Of a stretch of 64,000 nucleotides of DNA, positions 2,494 to 27,859 are shown one piece after another. How positions within the stretch are numbered: position 1 is the stretch's first letter; each line of letters opens with the position of its first letter. A model generated the notes under the pieces. It was not told the DNA's origin. It was given only the letters and a program-made list of their open reading frames with translations, and ran no database searches. The stretch comes from Mucilaginibacter gotjawali. Lineage in GTDB: Bacteria > Bacteroidota > Bacteroidia > Sphingobacteriales > Sphingobacteriaceae. The position numbers were made by a program, and so were the translations under genes. Location: positions 1,488,001-1,552,000 of the forward strand of contig NZ_AP017313.1 in assembly GCF_002355435.1 (NCBI RefSeq), in the 5' to 3' direction.

Positions 2494-3384
2494 TCAGACA
2501 ATCAATAACACTTTCCAGGCCTCCGCTACCCTGCCGGCATCCAGTAACTCTTTGGCCTTAAAATGCAGCTGCACTTCGCGGGTTTGGCTATCGCCGATGG
2601 TAGCATCCAGCAGTTCCTTAATTTCGGGCGATTGGGCATAAGCGTCAATCTCTTCATCATTTGGCAATACTTCCACATTACCCAACTGGCCGAGGTTATT
2701 GCCGGATAATATTTTTGAATTGCGGACAGCAAATGGAATAGCATCAACCCCAATACCTATGTTTTTATTGGGTTTGGCTACTATAAATAGATTATCGGGG
2801 GTTACGCGGCAATACCAGTCGCCACCCAGGCGGGCCACATGCTGCATTTTTAGCTGGTCGATATTGTTATTGGAATCCAGCACGGCTTCGTTAATGTGCA
2901 TCAGCTTAATTTCGGCAATTACCAGGTTACCTGCGCCTGCGCCATCGCCCAAACTAATAATATCCTTCACCACACACTCCAGTTGCACCGGCGATTCAGC
3001 AACCCTGGGCGGTTTTACCAGCTCAGACGGCAGCATGGTAAAGCCTGCTTTAATAAACTCATTCACCCCTTTTTCGTACTCAACACTTGCTAATGATACC
3101 TGCTGAACCATATCATAATTTACGATGTTGATGGTACATTCAGGCACTTCGCGCAGATTTTCCAGCGTATGCTTGGTGGTATTATCCCGCACCCTGCGCG
3201 ATGGCGAAAACACACAAACGGGCGGGTTTACACTAAACAAATTAAAATAACTGAACGGGCTCAGGTTGATATTGCCTTCTCTATCCACAGTTGACGCAAA
3301 ACATATCGGCCTCGGGCCAATGGCGGTGTTCAGGTAGCTTTGAATTTGAACCGGCGAAAGATCGGATAGTTTTATAGTTAACAT
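2494..3384 (-). CDS. Flavin reductase family protein
   Basis: A 296-residue protein of the flavin-reductase-like FMN-binding split-barrel family. The N-terminal part has the family signature PRPICFASTVDREGNINLSP followed by FSYFNLFSVNPPVCVFSP, which line the FMN site. The remaining C-terminal region, longer than the minimal domain, is typical of Bacteroidota homologues. The start is taken at ATG 3384 (MLTIKLSDL). The longer frame to 3438 reads through a dispersed inverted repeat and is unlikely to be translated. It lies next to the tyrosine degradation genes, but nothing shows that it acts in that pathway. Confidence 0.8.
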   Translation of the reverse strand: MLTIKLSDLSPVQIQSYLNTAIGPRPICFASTVDREGNINLSPFSYFNLFSVNPPVCVFSPSRRVRDNTTKHTLENLREVPECTINIVNYDMVQQVSLASVEYEKGVNEFIKAGFTMLPSELVKPPRVAESPVQLECVVKDIISLGDGAGAGNLVIAEIKLMHINEAVLDSNNNIDQLKMQHVARLGGDWYCRVTPDNLFIVAKPNKNIGIGVDAIPFAVRNSKILSGNNLGQLGNVEVLPNDEEIDAYAQSPEIKELLDATIGDSQTREVQLHFKAKELLDAGRVAEAWKVLLIV

Positions 3385-21688: not shown

Positions 21689-22999
21689 TTAATCATTCTT
21701 CAACAAATAATCCTTAAACCCTGCAAAGTCTTTACCCAAGGCAGTAGCATGTTTTTGTTTTTTGCTGAGGCCGGCAACCTGTTCGGGCACATCCACCTTG
21801 CCGCCAATACTCTCCGGAAAAACATCCGGGAATTTGCAGGGGTGCGCGGTGGATAAAAATATGCCGGCGGTATCCCTTTTGTAGTTGTCCTGCTGCCAGT
21901 CGCGCAGGGCTTGCCAGGCGATGGCGGTATGCGGGCAGGCCACGTAGTTATAGTTATCAAAAATAAACTTAATGGCTTCCAGCGTTTGTTCATCGGTATA
22001 GCTATAGCCGGTCACCTGTGTTTTTAGCGCTTCGGCATCTTCCTTAAACAGATCGGCGATACGTACCCAGTTGCTCGGGTCGCCTACATCCATGGCATTG
22101 CTCAGGGTAGCTACGGATGGTTTGGGTTGGTATACGCCTGTCTTTAAAAACTCCGGGACGGTATCATTCACATTGGTAGCCGCAATAAAATGCGAAACGG
22201 GCAGGCCCATCTTCCAGGCCAGTAAACCTGCGCCAATATTGCCAAAGTTACCGCTCGGTACCGAAAATACTACTTTGTTAATGTCGCGTTTCAGCAACTG
22301 CGCGTAGGCATTAAAATAATAAAACGTTTGCGGGATGAGGCGGGAAATATTGATGGAGTTAGCCGATGTCAGCCTGAATTTTTCATTCAGTTCCTTGTCG
22401 GTAAAGGCCTGTTTCACTAATGCCTGGCAATCATCAAACGTGCCGTCAACCTCCACGGCCCGGATATTTTGCCCGTTGGTGGTGAGTTGCAGTTCCTGGA
22501 TATCGCTCACCTTGCCTTTAGGGTACAGGATGGTAACGCGGGTATTGGGTACGCCTAAAAAGCCCAGCGCCACGGCGCCGCCGGTATCGCCGGAGGTGGC
22601 TACCAAAACATCCAGTTGTTTTTCGCCTTTCTCTAAAAAGTAGCTCATCACCCGGCTCATAAACCTTGCGCCGAAGTCCTTAAACGCCAGCGACGGCCCG
22701 TGCCAAAGCTCCAATACAAAAACATTTTCTTCCAGCTTAACGGCAGGCGCCAAAAAGCTGATGGCATCGGCAATGATCTCCTTCAGGTCGTCCGCGGGGA
22801 TATCATCACCAATAAGCTTTTGCGCCACGTGGAAAGCGATCTCCGGCAGGGTATACTCATCCAGGTGATTTAAAAAATTATCCTCCAGCCGCGGTATATT
22901 CACCGGCATGTACAGGCCCTTGTCCTGCGGCATGCTGTTAAAAACGGCTTCTTTAAAGCTTACCCGTGTGGCTGGGTTTTTGGTACTGTATAGTTTCAA
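21689..22999 (-). CDS. thrC: Threonine synthase
   Basis: A 436-residue PLP enzyme that makes threonine from O-phosphohomoserine. The N-terminal region has YSTKNPATRVSFKEAVFNSM. The PLP lysine is in HGPSLAFKDFGARFM near residue 113, and the phosphate-binding loop is VATSGDTGGAVALGF near 143. SVPSGNFGNIGAG near 244 is a further cofactor-site segment. The length and N-terminus match the E. coli/Bacteroidota type more than the short Bacillus type. It is the last gene of thrA-thrB-thrC; the gap to thrB (164 bp) is filled with TTTACGAATTACGATTTACG and AATTTTTAGAATT phrases. Confidence 0.95.
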   Translation of the reverse strand: MKLYSTKNPATRVSFKEAVFNSMPQDKGLYMPVNIPRLEDNFLNHLDEYTLPEIAFHVAQKLIGDDIPADDLKEIIADAISFLAPAVKLEENVFVLELWHGPSLAFKDFGARFMSRVMSYFLEKGEKQLDVLVATSGDTGGAVALGFLGVPNTRVTILYPKGKVSDIQELQLTTNGQNIRAVEVDGTFDDCQALVKQAFTDKELNEKFRLTSANSINISRLIPQTFYYFNAYAQLLKRDINKVVFSVPSGNFGNIGAGLLAWKMGLPVSHFIAATNVNDTVPEFLKTGVYQPKPSVATLSNAMDVGDPSNWVRIADLFKEDAEALKTQVTGYSYTDEQTLEAIKFIFDNYNYVACPHTAIAWQALRDWQQDNYKRDTAGIFLSTAHPCKFPDVFPESIGGKVDVPEQVAGLSKKQKHATALGKDFAGFKDYLLKND

Positions 23000-23163: not shown

Positions 23164-24168
23164 TCATCCAATCACCCTCGGCCCTTTATCATTAATGGTG
23201 GATACATAAATGTTCGAACCTATCTTAATGCCTGTTAAATGCTGCTGCAGTTTTTGGGTGATGCGGTGAGCGGTGTCTTCATCCCTGGTAAAGGCAAAAA
23301 CGGACGGCCCGGAGCCGGAAATGCCAAAGCTTACCGCGCCCATTTCCATGGCCATTTCCCGCATTTTATAAAAATCAGGGATCAGCATGGAGCGTACGGG
23401 CTCCACCAAAATATCTTTCATGCTGCGGCCAATCAGGTCGATGTCATTTAAAAACAAACCGCTTACCAGGCCGGCAATATTGCCCCACTGGGTAACAGCA
23501 TCTTTCATCTGGATATTTTTGCGGATGATTTGCCGGGCCTCCCTTGTGGGTACGTCCACATCCGGGAAAATGATAGCGCAGTACAAACCCTCCGGATGCG
23601 GCAACCGAACCACATCCAGCGGCTCGTAACTCCGTATCAATACAAAACCACCCATCAAAGCGGGCGCCACGTTATCAGCATGACCATGACCACAAGCCAT
23701 TTCCTCACCTTTCATGGCAAAGGGCAACAGGCCGGCCACATCGCTTTCATCACCCAATAAAGTCTTGATGGCGTATAGCCCGGCCACGGTACTTGCAGAG
23801 CTCGAGCCCAGGCCGCTGCCTATCGGCATTTTTTTGTGCAGCTCGATATCCAAACCAATATCGGTACGCCCGATACTTTTTAAATAATGCTGCACGCTAA
23901 CGCTTACCGTATTTTTAGCAGGATCCATCGGCAGGCGGCCATTGTCGCCGGTGATTTTGCTGATGGTGATACCCGGTTTACCGGTCATGCGCATTACCAC
24001 CTCGTCGCCGGGCTCATTCACTGCAAAACCCAAAACATCAAAGCCACAAACCACATTGGCGACAGTTGCAGGGGCAAAAACCTGAATGTCCGCTCCTACA
24101 GCCCCCCGACCCCCTAAAGGGGGAGGAATAGCGGCGGTTTTATTTAAATCTTGTATTTTATCTTCCAT
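23164..24168 (-). CDS. thrB: Homoserine kinase
   Basis: A 334-residue GHMP kinase that phosphorylates homoserine. The core starts at residue 28 with DIQVFAPATVANVVCGFDVL. The ATP-binding GHMP motif is KKMPIGSGLGSSSASTVAG near residue 106, and GAVSFGISGSGPSVFAF near 280 is the C-terminal glycine-rich motif. The first 26 residues, including AAIPPPLGGRGAVGA, are unusual: they are encoded by a CCCCCTAAAGGGGGAGG-type dispersed repeat, and no alternative start lies between it and the conserved core. It follows thrA after a 237-bp gap containing a 40-bp-arm inverted repeat. Confidence 0.93.
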   Translation of the reverse strand: MEDKIQDLNKTAAIPPPLGGRGAVGADIQVFAPATVANVVCGFDVLGFAVNEPGDEVVMRMTGKPGITISKITGDNGRLPMDPAKNTVSVSVQHYLKSIGRTDIGLDIELHKKMPIGSGLGSSSASTVAGLYAIKTLLGDESDVAGLLPFAMKGEEMACGHGHADNVAPALMGGFVLIRSYEPLDVVRLPHPEGLYCAIIFPDVDVPTREARQIIRKNIQMKDAVTQWGNIAGLVSGLFLNDIDLIGRSMKDILVEPVRSMLIPDFYKMREMAMEMGAVSFGISGSGPSVFAFTRDEDTAHRITQKLQQHLTGIKIGSNIYVSTINDKGPRVIG

Positions 24169-24405: not shown

Positions 24406-26016
24406 TTATGCTCCCACATTTATTAAATCAGCAAATACACCGGCTGCGGTTACTTCAGCGCCTGCACCGGGGCCTTTCACCACCAGCGGGCGTTCCCTGT
24501 ATCGGTCGGTAGTAAAAGATATAATGTTATCACTACCGGACAGGGTATAAAACGGGTGACTTTCGTCCACCATTTGCAGGGTGATCTCTGCTTTGCCTTC
24601 ATCCAGTTTGCCGATATAACGCAATACCTTATTCTCTGCAGCGGCTTTTGCCTTCAGGTTGCTGAAGAAAGCATCTTCTGCTTTAAGGGCAGCGTAAAAT
24701 TCTTCCACGCTTTGAGCCTCCAGGCATGCTTTTGGTAATACGCTTTCAATCTTCACATCCGCTTCCTCCATGGCATAGCCGGCATCACGGGCAAGAATCA
24801 GGATCTTGCGCATGAAATCCTTACCGCTCAGGTCGTCGCGCGGGTCAGGTTCGGTATAGCCTTTATCCTGCGCCTCTTTTACCACGTCATGGAAATTGGC
24901 ATCGCCCTTAAAGTTATTAAAGATAAAAGATATGGTGCCCGACAGGATCGCTTCTATCTTGGCCACCCTGTCGCCGCTGTTCATCAGGTCCTTTAAGGTG
25001 CGGATGATCGGCAGGCCTGCGCCTACGTTAGTTTCGTAAAAGAAATCAACGCCGTGGCTGTGCGCGGCATCATGGAAGGTTTTATATTGTTTATATGAAG
25101 CCGAATTACCAATCTTGTTGCAGGTAATCACCGAGATATTGGCTTTAAATACTTCTTCGTAATATTCTACAGGTTTTGGGCTGGCGGTATTGTCAATAAA
25201 CACACAGTTGGGCAGGTTCATGCTTTTCATTTTGGCAACAAACTCAGCCAGGTCGGCCGGGTGCATGGACGCCTCCAGTTCAGCCTGCCAGTTATCCAGT
25301 GAAACCCCATCGCTGTTAAACACCATTTTACGGGTATTGCTGATGCCGGCAATTTTAACCTGTATGCCATTATGTTCCTGCAAATAAGCACTGTGCGCAT
25401 TCAATTGCTTAAACAGGGTTTGGCCGATATTGCCGGTACCCAGGCAAAAGGCATGCAGGGTTTTGGTGAGCTGGGTAAAAAAGCCGTCGTGCACTGCATT
25501 CAGGGCTTTTGCCAGGTCGTTTGCGGAGATAATTACCGAGATATTGTATTCTGATGATCCCTGCGCAATCGCCCTAACATTGATACCGTTACGGCCAAGG
25601 GCATGGAACAATTTGCCGGATACCCCCGGGGTTTGCTTCATGTTTTCGCCAACGATGGCTATGATGGCCAGGTTTTGTTCAATAACCACATGCTCCAGCT
25701 TTTTGGCTACCAGTTCCAGTTCAAATTCCTGCTCTATTAAATGGCGTGCGCGTTCAGTATCGCCCGGCTGCACGGCGAAGGTAATGCTATGTTCGGAGGA
25801 GGATTGGGTGATGAGGATGACATTAATCTGCTCCCTCGCCAGTAAAGAAAATAACCTGCCGCTAAAGCCCGATTTACCCACCATGCCGCTGCCTTCCAAA
25901 TTCAGGATGCTGATATTGTTGATAGAGGAAATACCTTTTATAGGCAGGTTGGAAGGTTTGCAATCATGGCGGATAACGGTCCCTTCAAAGTCAACATCAA
26001 AAGTATTTTTGATCAC
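24406..26016 (-). CDS. thrA: Bifunctional ThrA, C-terminal part: ACT domains and homoserine dehydrogenase (split by frameshift)
   Basis: A 536-residue C-terminal part of aspartokinase I-homoserine dehydrogenase I. Two ACT-like regulatory domains occupy about residues 1-165 (ISILNLEGSGMVGKSGFSGR and LAIIAIVGENMKQTPGVSGK), then homoserine dehydrogenase from about 185 (HAFCLGTGNIGQTLFKQLN for NADP, CVFIDNTASPKPVEYY, YETNVGAGLPIIRTLKDL, DDLSGKDFMRKILILARDAG). Homoserine dehydrogenase reduces aspartate semialdehyde to homoserine. The upstream reading frame overlaps it by GTGA (26013-26016). Reading one extra A in the A6 run restores a single 815-residue ThrA, the normal size. GTG at 26016 could start it separately. 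Confidence 0.9.
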   Translation of the reverse strand: MIKNTFDVDFEGTVIRHDCKPSNLPIKGISSINNISILNLEGSGMVGKSGFSGRLFSLLAREQINVILITQSSSEHSITFAVQPGDTERARHLIEQEFELELVAKKLEHVVIEQNLAIIAIVGENMKQTPGVSGKLFHALGRNGINVRAIAQGSSEYNISVIISANDLAKALNAVHDGFFTQLTKTLHAFCLGTGNIGQTLFKQLNAHSAYLQEHNGIQVKIAGISNTRKMVFNSDGVSLDNWQAELEASMHPADLAEFVAKMKSMNLPNCVFIDNTASPKPVEYYEEVFKANISVITCNKIGNSASYKQYKTFHDAAHSHGVDFFYETNVGAGLPIIRTLKDLMNSGDRVAKIEAILSGTISFIFNNFKGDANFHDVVKEAQDKGYTEPDPRDDLSGKDFMRKILILARDAGYAMEEADVKIESVLPKACLEAQSVEEFYAALKAEDAFFSNLKAKAAAENKVLRYIGKLDEGKAEITLQMVDESHPFYTLSGSDNIISFTTDRYRERPLVVKGPGAGAEVTAAGVFADLINVGA

Positions 26017-26852
26017 GATTGGAATTTTTTCATAAAGGCCGGGATCATGGTAGGGGGGTAGATCACCTTGGCCCCGAAGTAGGAAAGTTCCATCGCTTCG
26101 GTGTAAGTCAGTTCCGGTAAGGAGAAAGCTTTGGTTACCATACGCGGATCAGCGGTCATCATGCCGTTCACGTCTGTCCAGATCTGGATCTCTTCCGCAT
26201 TTAACGCTGCGCCGAGTATGGCTGCGGTATAATCGCTGCCGCCACGGCCCAGGGTAGTGATTTGCCCGGCGTCGTTGGCAGATATGAACCCGGTAACAAA
26301 TATCAGTTTGCTGCTGTTCTCCTGGTAAAAGCCACGAACCAGCAGGTCGGTTAACTCCATATTTACTTTTGCCTGCCCGAAGGAGCTGTCGGTTTTGATG
26401 AACTCCGTAGCCTCAACGCTGATAGCGCCGGGGAAACGTTGTGCGGCGATCTTGCCGATCATAAAGGTGGAACAGCGCTCGCCGAAGCTGAGCACCATAT
26501 CGCGGGTTTTAGGGGTAAGCTCCCGTAAGGTGAGGATGCCCTGCAGCAGGTCTTCCAGCTGGTTAAATAATATTTTAAGACGGGTAAATGCCGGGTTTTG
26601 GTTTTGGATGTCGAGCAAGCTCTTTATTACGTCAAAATGGCGTTTTTCCAGTTCGGCTAATTGGGCCGTAAAATCTTTTCCTTCAGCAGCGCCTTCGGCC
26701 ATAGCTACCAGCAGGTTGGTTACTCCGCTCATGGCGGATAAAACCACTACCGGTTTTTGTTTATTTTTAATCTCACCCTCCAGGATATTTAACAGGGTTT
26801 GGATACTTTGCACTGAGCCTACGGAAGTACCGCCGAATTTTAAAATCTTCAT
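26013..26852 (-). CDS. thrA: Bifunctional ThrA, N-terminal part: aspartate kinase domain (split by frameshift)
   Basis: A 279-residue aspartate kinase domain starting at ATG 26852 (MKILKFGGTSVGSVQSIQTL). It shows VVVLSAMSGVTNLLVAMAEG, LSFGERCSTFMIGKIAAQ, VTGFISANDAGQITTLGRGG and SDYTAAILGAALNAEEIQIW with TDVNGMMTADPR, all standard for the kinase. It ends abruptly after YPPTMIPAFMKKFQS, where intact homologues continue into the ACT domains. The break is at six A (26025-26030 on the plus strand). Upstream lies a Thr/Ile leader peptide and terminator that would regulate it. Confidence 0.9.
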   Translation of the reverse strand: MKILKFGGTSVGSVQSIQTLLNILEGEIKNKQKPVVVLSAMSGVTNLLVAMAEGAAEGKDFTAQLAELEKRHFDVIKSLLDIQNQNPAFTRLKILFNQLEDLLQGILTLRELTPKTRDMVLSFGERCSTFMIGKIAAQRFPGAISVEATEFIKTDSSFGQAKVNMELTDLLVRGFYQENSSKLIFVTGFISANDAGQITTLGRGGSDYTAAILGAALNAEEIQIWTDVNGMMTADPRMVTKAFSLPELTYTEAMELSYFGAKVIYPPTMIPAFMKKFQS

Positions 26853-26871: not shown

Positions 26872-26901
26872 AAAAACGCCTTCCTCTTTTGGAGGAAGGC
26901 G
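26872..26901 (-). terminator. Attenuator terminator upstream of thrA
   Basis: On the minus strand, CGCCTTCCTC and GAGGAAGGCG form a perfect 10-bp stem with a short A-rich loop (arms 26892-26901 and 26877-26886), followed by five T. It lies 20 nt before the thrA ATG and after a Thr/Ile-rich leader peptide. Its 5' arm CTTCCTCC (26891-26898) can alternatively pair with GGAGGAAG in the leader (26940-26947), giving an antiterminator. Confidence 0.85.
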
Positions 26902-26935
26902 CTCATTTGGTTTTTTATGTTTTTACACCATACGA

Positions 26936-27001
26936 CTATCTTCCTCCGTGTTTTACCCCGGTGGTTGTGATTGTTGTTATAATGGTGTTGTTACTGGTCA
27001 T
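26936..27001 (-). CDS. thrL: thr operon leader peptide (Thr/Ile-rich)
   Basis: A 21-codon open frame between the nitrilase gene and thrA. It contains TIITTITTTG and has seven threonine and three isoleucine codons in total. This resembles in composition the enterobacterial thrL peptide, which controls thrA by ribosome stalling when charged tRNA-Thr or tRNA-Ile is short. The last sense codons GGA GGA AGA and the stop TAG overlap the segment that can pair with the terminator's 5' arm. The run of Thr/Ile codons ends about 13 nt before that segment, the right distance for a stalled ribosome to leave it free. No -7 element is clear; TACCATTTG (about 27042) is a possible variant. Confidence 0.8.
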   Translation of the reverse strand: MTSNNTIITTITTTGVKHGGR

Positions 27002-27061
27002 ATTATCGGCTGTAAAGTAAGCGGAATATTTTTGATTATGCAAATGGTATTTTTTTATTTT

Positions 27062-27859
27062 TTAATACCCGCCATACAATTCCGGTTTAAACCTCCTGGC
27101 CAGGAGCCCCGTCGCCAGTTCTGGATTTATCTCCTCAACAAAAACACCCGGCTCACCATAAGGCTGATAAGCGATGCATGTTCCGTCCGGGCCTATCAGG
27201 GAACTTGCTGATTCAGGGTAACGCATCCCATAGTTGGAGCTGGCAAAATAGATGGTGTTTTCCAAAGCCCGCATCATCATTGCTTTTTCATAGTAGGGGT
27301 TGTTTTTGTTGCCCCATTCAGTCAGTTCTTCATCAACATTGCTATCGCTTCCCGAACAATGCGGGTGAAATACGATTTTGGCGTCGTTCCGGGCCGCCCA
27401 TCTTACCGATTCGGGGTACCTGAACCCTTCGTGGCAAATGGTAATGCCGAATTTTACGCCATCTATTTCAAAAATGCTGCGTTCTGTACCGGGTACCCAT
27501 ATCTTGTCTTCAGAAGGGTCCAGTTGGTTTTTGGTTTGATAGCCCAGTATTTCACCCGATTTGGAGATTACATGCGCTAAGTTGAACTTGCCCTTTGATG
27601 AGTGCCAATCCATGGGCAATATAATGGCGATATTATTTTCAGATGCTATTCTGCCGGCTTTATCCAATGCTGCCTGCATATTTTCGGGCGAAGCAACTTC
27701 AATGTCAAATTCTTCTAACGGATAACCGGGAATATATGATTCAGGGAAACAAATGATATCCGCCTGCTGTGCAGCTGCTTTTTTTACCAGTTGCTCCAAA
27801 TTGGTTAATCCATCTTCAATGGACTTTGGAAATGGGGGCGATGCTACTGCTACTTTCAT
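27062..27859 (-). CDS. Carbon-nitrogen hydrolase (nitrilase superfamily)
   Basis: A 265-residue amidase/nitrilase-fold enzyme. The Glu-Lys-Cys triad can be seen: Glu in IICFPESYIPGYP near residue 40, Lys in YQTKNQLDPSED near residue 110 and Cys in FGITICHEGFRYPES near residue 144. The length fits omega-amidase- or carbamoylputrescine-type members, but the substrate cannot be named. It is transcribed leftward toward the thr leader, whose promoter must lie in the 60 bp after its stop or within its 3' end. Confidence 0.85.
   Translation of the reverse strand: MKVAVASPPFPKSIEDGLTNLEQLVKKAAAQQADIICFPESYIPGYPLEEFDIEVASPENMQAALDKAGRIASENNIAIILPMDWHSSKGKFNLAHVISKSGEILGYQTKNQLDPSEDKIWVPGTERSIFEIDGVKFGITICHEGFRYPESVRWAARNDAKIVFHPHCSGSDSNVDEELTEWGNKNNPYYEKAMMMRALENTIYFASSNYGMRYPESASSLIGPDGTCIAYQPYGEPGVFVEEINPELATGLLARRFKPELYGGY

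Follow-up and report, generated by a model that had tools for sequence, protein, structure and literature searches.

The window, by which we mean the whole 64-kb stretch of DNA analysed here, comes from a genome of one contig and 6.34 Mb. On its minus strand lie three consecutive genes whose matches to NCBIfam models identify them as a thrABC operon:

24406..26852, minus strand: thrA, bifunctional aspartate kinase/homoserine dehydrogenase, read in two frames (NF006959)
23164..24168, minus strand: thrB, homoserine kinase (NF002288, 371.5 bits, cut-off 194)
21689..22999, minus strand: thrC, threonine synthase (TIGR00260, 299.8 bits, cut-off 167.1)

One base is missing in an A run of thrA (26030..26025), which splits the gene into two overlapping open reading frames. 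Both pieces match the NCBIfam model for bifunctional aspartate kinase/homoserine dehydrogenase I (NF006959), the first partially with 281.9 bits and the second with 739.1 bits (cut-off 726). At this A run thrA is intact in nine of nine related loci (two pairs of which are identical there). Because of the one-base deletion the operon may be broken in this genome or the assembly may be wrong: either the strain has a broken ThrA or the frameshift is a homopolymer assembly error.

The thrA gene is preceded by a short open reading frame and an intrinsic terminator, within and around which the following elements were distinguished, in the order in which they would be transcribed:

27041..27044, minus strand: TTTG, putative −33-like promoter element (pattern scan of leaders)
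27014..27019, minus strand: TACTTT, putative −7-like promoter element (same pattern scan)
26936..27001, minus strand: leader peptide ORF MTSNNTIITTITTTGVKHGGR, 21 codons plus TAG (sequence and ORF translation)
26982..26988, minus strand: segment 1, ACACCAT, codons 5-7, pairing with segment 2b (fold and alignment)
26960..26986, minus strand: putative regulatory codons 6-14, T I I T T I T T T (sequence)
26940..26947, minus strand: segment 2, GGAGGAAG, codons 19-21, 5' strand of the predicted antiterminator (fold and alignment)
26925..26931, minus strand: segment 2b, ATGGTGT, partner of segment 1 or, through UGGU, of ACCA in the inner helix of the predicted antiterminator (fold and alignment)
26903..26911, minus strand: ACCAAATGA, 3' strand of this inner helix (fold)
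26872..26901, minus strand: intrinsic terminator with a 10-bp stem, a 5-nt loop and TTTTT (folding and relatives)
26891..26898, minus strand: segment 3, CTTCCTCC, common to the antiterminator (with segment 2) and the terminator (with segment 4) (fold and alignment)
26879..26886, minus strand: segment 4, GAGGAAGG, 3' arm of the terminator (fold)

The leader frame begins with ATG and encodes seven Thr and three Ile (27001..26936), as stated in a preliminary description of this DNA, which also gave the correct positions for GGAGGAAG (26947..26940) and CTTCCTCC (26898..26891). The terminator, described there as a 10-bp stem followed by five T, was confirmed at 26901..26872; it has the sequence CGCCTTCCTC-CAAAA-GAGGAAGGCG followed by TTTTT and a folding energy that varies from −18.2 to −21.5 kcal/mol with the choice of its ends. 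The leader had been said to end directly before the terminator stem, a point that needs correction: 34 nt separate the leader stop (26938..26936) from the stem, and this spacer contains ATGGTGT (26931..26925) as a further conserved element. From the T run to the ATG of thrA (26852) there are 19 nt. When the 171-nt region was shuffled 200 times, only one shuffle folded as well as or better than the natural sequence (z −3.56).

Upstream regions of 110 thrA loci were collected (some genomes counted twice), 109 of them with enough sequence before the gene. The preliminary description had proposed a search of related thrA upstream regions for Thr-rich short frames, and a Thr/Ile-rich leader frame was found in all 109 evaluable loci. 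Scored by its Thr and Ile content, the leader in the window reaches 7.1 (cut-off 5.7). A run of at least 5.7 lies within 300 nt upstream of thrA in 106 of the 109 loci and upstream of none of 330 control ORFs other than thrA, drawn from the window and from 80 loci (the scan took in 335 ORFs, and five that reached the score were excluded, each being thrA read from an earlier start). The cut-offs for this score and for the scan of stop-codon hairpins described below were set after first looks at the data, and identical ones were used for the controls.

With further loci of the same family the number of evaluable thrA upstream regions rose to 125, and in each of the 125 a Thr/Ile leader is followed by an intrinsic terminator whose 5' arm is complementary to the leader end. 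Removal of duplicates left 108 distinct leader-terminator sequences; in every one an intrinsic terminator is present, and the tail of the leader can form a helix with the 5' arm of this terminator (−8.6 to −21.6 kcal/mol). The relatives are from Mucilaginibacter, Pedobacter, Daejeonella, Pararcticibacter, metagenome-assembled genomes labelled Sphingobacterium and other genomes of the same family, which we take to be the Sphingobacteriaceae. Dropped were two loci encoding other aspartokinases (L002, L003), one with only 59 nt of upstream sequence (L045), one genome with a partial gene (G005) and two with no close match to thrA (G018, G032).

Fifty-three leaders belong to the 21-codon TTGxxxGG type. 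All of them start with ATG, and their codons 13, 14 and 15 are always Thr, Thr and Gly. Gly15 is specified by four different synonymous codons, whereas for Gly19 and for Gly20, which lie in the antiterminator strand, the codon is GGA in 52 of the 53 leaders; the front of the leader thus looks constrained as peptide code and its end as RNA. The frame is altered in Daejeonella and some other relatives, where the leader itself ends with ATGGTGTAA or a close form; the persistence of this stretch despite the frame change suggests that it matters as RNA. Between the last Thr codon and segment 2 there are 9-12 nt in 98 of the 108 sequences.

The preliminary description had also proposed that GGAGGAAG at the end of the leader pairs with CTTCCTCC of the terminator. 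In the window alone this pairing does not exceed chance, an equally good one being reached by 20 of 200 shuffles of the leader tail, and the case for the antiterminator is therefore made by the relatives, in which the pairing is kept by covariation. Row by row, the leader tail pairs with the terminator arm better than nearly all shuffles (at most 2 of 200 as good) in only 39 of the 108 sequences, and L117, L060, L041, L115 and L029 were each equalled by over 25 of 200 shuffles. Segments 2, 3 and 4 differ in sequence between attenuators of the Mucilaginibacter type and those of the Pedobacter type. In random samples the tail and arm of one type pair with −16.3 kcal/mol (Mucilaginibacter) and −11.5 kcal/mol (Pedobacter); when tails and arms were swapped between the types, random samples gave only −7.4 and −8.9 kcal/mol. 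The 39 distinct combinations of segments 2 and 3 have a mean of −15.85, as compared to −13.74 (sd 0.32) with permuted partners, and none of 20000 permutations was as good as the true partners.

The pairing of segments 2 and 3 is kept despite quite different sequences, for example as GGAGGAAG:CUUCCUCC, as CGGGGC:GCCCCG in L101 and as UGGGGG:CCCCCA in L201. In L107 it is CGGAAC:GUUCCG where relatives have CGGGGC:GUCCCG; leader and terminator arm have both changed, the antiterminator is kept and the terminator makes use of G-U pairs. The next base past the helix, which belongs to the terminator loop, also tends to be paired with the leader (47 of 64 cases, 42.4 expected, p 0.016); the signal is modest, and the terminator does not account for this loop base. 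In the alignment of 78 sequences of the Mucilaginibacter type (L082 excluded from the pair counts), standard pairs between segments 2 and 3 are formed, depending on the position, in 64 to 76 sequences, those between segments 1 and 2b in 38 to 73, and those of the inner antiterminator helix in 46 to 65, so that the latter two pairings are conserved only in part. The predicted antiterminator is thus mutually exclusive with the terminator and, as judged by the comparison of sequences, is maintained by covariation across genera.

Right behind the leader stop the sequence reads ATG GTG TAA (26931-26923). A two-codon frame follows the leader stop in 91 of the 108 distinct sequences, the third codon being a stop in 88 of the 91, and in the Pedobacter form it is TTG TTG TAA/TAG/TGA. 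A minigene for re-initiation of translation was considered as an explanation and may exist, but the stretch pairs with the leader (by eye, ACACCA:UGGUGU and UUACAAC:GUUGUAA), which explains its conservation without translation.

Upstream of the leader ATG the pattern TTTG-N17..24-TANTTT, which we take to be the Bacteroidota promoter type, was found before 54 of 106 leaders and in 0.8% of shuffles, with a spacing of exactly 21 in 51 of the 54; since the pattern was picked from the alignment after seeing the data, the enrichment is descriptive. An earlier pattern, TTTG-N-TAnnTTT, was given up because it was no better than chance (1 of 106 leaders, 14 of 2120 shuffles). The RNA would start a few nucleotides before the leader ATG, at a position set by TACTTT.

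To relate the position of the ribosome to the fold of the RNA, the leading edge of the ribosome was assumed at +14 nt from the A site and the RNA beyond it was folded. With this assumed edge, a ribosome that has any one of codons 6-14 in its A site leaves segment 2 free; these codons coincide exactly with the Thr/Ile run, and the best fold is then the antiterminator (−21.5 to −23.2 kcal/mol); at codon 16 six of the eight bases of segment 2 are covered, and at codon 18 and the stop codon all of them. The geometry, with the same assumed edge, therefore permits the switch put forward in the preliminary description, in which a ribosome stalled in the Thr run frees segment 2 and one at the stop codon covers it. 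Both alternative structures considered there do fold, and they are balanced, the antiterminator with −20.0 and the terminator with −18.2 to −19.7 kcal/mol; the antiterminator fold also uses UGGU of segment 2b. Free of ribosomes, the full-length RNA folds into the hairpin of segments 1 and 2b plus the terminator. Before segment 4 is made, however, the RNA without a ribosome folds best into the antiterminator and not into the pairing of 1 with 2b, so that folding does not predict the operon to be shut off when translation is lacking.

We propose the following course of events. Segment 1, which contains Thr codons, could form a first hairpin with segment 2b, perhaps causing a pause. When Thr-tRNA (or Ile-tRNA) is scarce, the ribosome would stall at codons 6-14 and cover segment 1; segment 2 would then pair with segment 3, the terminator would not form and thrABC would be transcribed. 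When the tRNA is plentiful, the ribosome would reach the stop codon and cover segment 2, segment 3 would pair with segment 4, and transcription in vivo would end before thrA. The leader very probably lets a slowed ribosome switch on the thr genes at threonine scarcity, and we regard it as very likely from the sequence evidence that transcription of the thrABC operon is subject to ribosome-mediated attenuation at this element.

The likeness to the enterobacterial threonine leader thrL, already pointed out in the preliminary description, stands in that the predicted working principle is the same with a different sequence; it does not extend to the Rfam model Thr_leader (RF00506), which scores 31.7 bits on the thr leader of the window where the gathering cut-off is 55. 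Sub-threshold matches also lie on the thr leader in eight of eight related loci (22.3 to 49.1 bits, the best in L075). These matches would suit a true descent from the enterobacterial thr leader, by transfer or from a common origin, with the same working mode, as would the features shared with E. coli thrL, which likewise has 21 codons, a Thr-Thr-Gly end and the antiterminator strand in its last codons. We nevertheless hold such a descent to be unlikely. The cut-off was reached in none of 41 genomes of the family, each of which has several matches at E up to 1 (3 to 38 each, with 29.7 to 45.6 bits among the matches listed). In six of the eight genomes in which the place of thrA is known the best match is elsewhere, including the genome of the window, where it has 39.3 bits and lies at C1:2695864, away from thrA. 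The score is therefore weak and not diagnostic, and Rfam Thr_leader was rejected as proof of family membership. In the two remaining genomes (G076 and G116) the best match is the thr leader, so that a weak resemblance persists; in G004 the thr leader is among the matches listed. The same search of control genomes gave matches in 9 of 14, above the cut-off in one. No Rfam family at all, T-box, riboswitches and Bacteroid-trp RNA included, reached its gathering threshold anywhere in the 64-kb window. Upstream of the thr leader of L097 (Pedobacter), at 2997-3124, there is a match to the Flavo-1 RNA (RF01705) that falls slightly short of the gathering score, with 39.7 of 42 bits.

Two other readings were weighed against attenuation by the leader ribosome. 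The terminator might belong to the nitrilase-like gene upstream or be a fixed attenuator, the leader being a by-product without any switch: the upstream gene is on the same strand and ends at 27062, so that its read-through RNA would end at the terminator, and, as mentioned, the window by itself gives no significant support for the antiterminator pairing. This reading is highly improbable, as it leaves unexplained the presence of a Thr/Ile run at every one of the 109 evaluable loci, the Gly15 kept through four synonymous codons and the covariation of segments 2 and 3 across genera. Equally improbable is another route of action, in which leader translation would protect the transcript against Rho or the stalled ribosome would regulate how thrA is translated. 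Such a route may exist in the group, as leaders for Thr or His that lack a clear intrinsic terminator occur at other thrA loci of Bacteroidia and at hisG of this family; here, all 108 distinct sequences keep a T-run intrinsic terminator and the exclusive pairing, which neither route needs.

A second type of leader, for the most part lacking a clear intrinsic terminator, was found outside the family in 23 of 78 thrA upstream regions, which have a Thr-rich frame with its stop codon in or at a GC hairpin, as compared to 21 of 1560 shuffles scored with an identical cut-off (the paralogues L221-L227 were excluded from the scan). The arms of the hairpin are ACCCC..GGGGT, AACCC..GGGTT, ACGGGG..CCCGT and others, and Thr leaders with such a covarying hairpin are present in L120, L121, L127, L134, L151, L160, L161, L163, L168, L169, L174, L184 and further loci. 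A hairpin with a T run, sought in 36 upstream regions, was mostly absent or weak; one thrA upstream region, that of L118, resembles the terminator type, with GGAGG. The exact stop-hairpin pattern CCCCNTAGGGGT...CATAT occurs in 3 of 25 genomes, each time at thrA. The motif GTTTCTACGTGAAAC has three matches among 149 genomes, one of them at thrA (G175) and two elsewhere, at which no amino-acid-run leader was seen.

In the genome of the window, hisG (L234) has a His-rich leader, MNGYKQHHLSLHHHHHVVIR. Frames with at least three His precede hisG in 24 of 26 loci of the same family (a raw count without chance control), the loci with a His-rich leader being L234, L246, L247 and L261-L282. These leaders often have an ATCGCC..GGCGAT hairpin at the stop, the stretch TTTCTACG lies downstream of the leader in 13 of the 26 loci, and a T-run terminator was not evident in the 26. 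Terminator-type His leaders were recognized by eye at hisG in other families of the Bacteroidia (L237, L238, L240-L245, L248, L254, L255, L257). Those of L243, L244 and L248, for example, resemble the thr attenuator, by eye, in having a residue-rich leader followed by a T-run hairpin, and differ from it in the gene, hisG, and the amino acid, His. Upstream of ilvD in the genome of the window (L235, L236) no branched-chain-rich leader was seen among the frames listed. Since hisG here has the leader type found at thrA elsewhere, and the reverse, the two types appear to coexist in one genome and to swap between operons. Our tentative suggestion is that Bacteroidia possess two leader-peptide architectures, the classical one with a terminator and one with a GC hairpin at the stop codon and no clear terminator, which trade places between operons, and that the second may be a distinct control by the leader ribosome.

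The proposed thr attenuator would be a new instance of a known principle: the attenuation trick, textbook knowledge from gut bacteria, would here be used in another phylum. As the element is conserved and covarying in the sampled Sphingobacteriaceae, the mechanism becomes directly testable in Bacteroidota. Ribosomes of Bacteroidota rarely use Shine-Dalgarno sequences, and the GGAGG strand inside the leader would serve RNA pairing instead. For genome annotation the gain is a small gene that had been missed, together with an RNA element not called by Rfam. In the literature searched, which was mostly without subscription papers, no report on a thr attenuator of Sphingobacteriaceae was found. Attenuator predictions by Vitreschak and co-workers in 2004 and by Lopatovskaya and co-workers in 2010 reportedly may cover Bacteroidetes.

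Leader-peptide attenuation has already been suggested for Bacteroidota. In Flavobacterium psychrophilum, which belongs to the same phylum and another family, there are clues for it upstream of amino-acid biosynthesis operons, and the structured 5' elements of pheA and hisG are reported to be conserved in other genera; thr is not named in the accessible part of that report (PMC9723704). Short open reading frames in 5' untranslated regions have been noted in Bacteroides thetaiotaomicron (PMC7366714). The Bacteroid-trp RNA (RF01692), listed as a candidate RNA of Bacteroidetes (PMC2864571), is by its name tied to trp genes and thus to another amino acid, and it has no match here at the gathering threshold.

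Among the closest parallels is the thr operon of E. coli. There, too, a terminator precedes a fused thrA and the genes are in the order thrABC, and the leader of thrL (RF00506) is likewise a Thr/Ile peptide of about 21 codons, the last of which provide the antiterminator strand. The leader from Mucilaginibacter differs from it in sequence and in the promoter-like box that appears to lie directly before its ATG. By analogy, the predicted element works like thrL in principle, a statement that carries no claim of descent.
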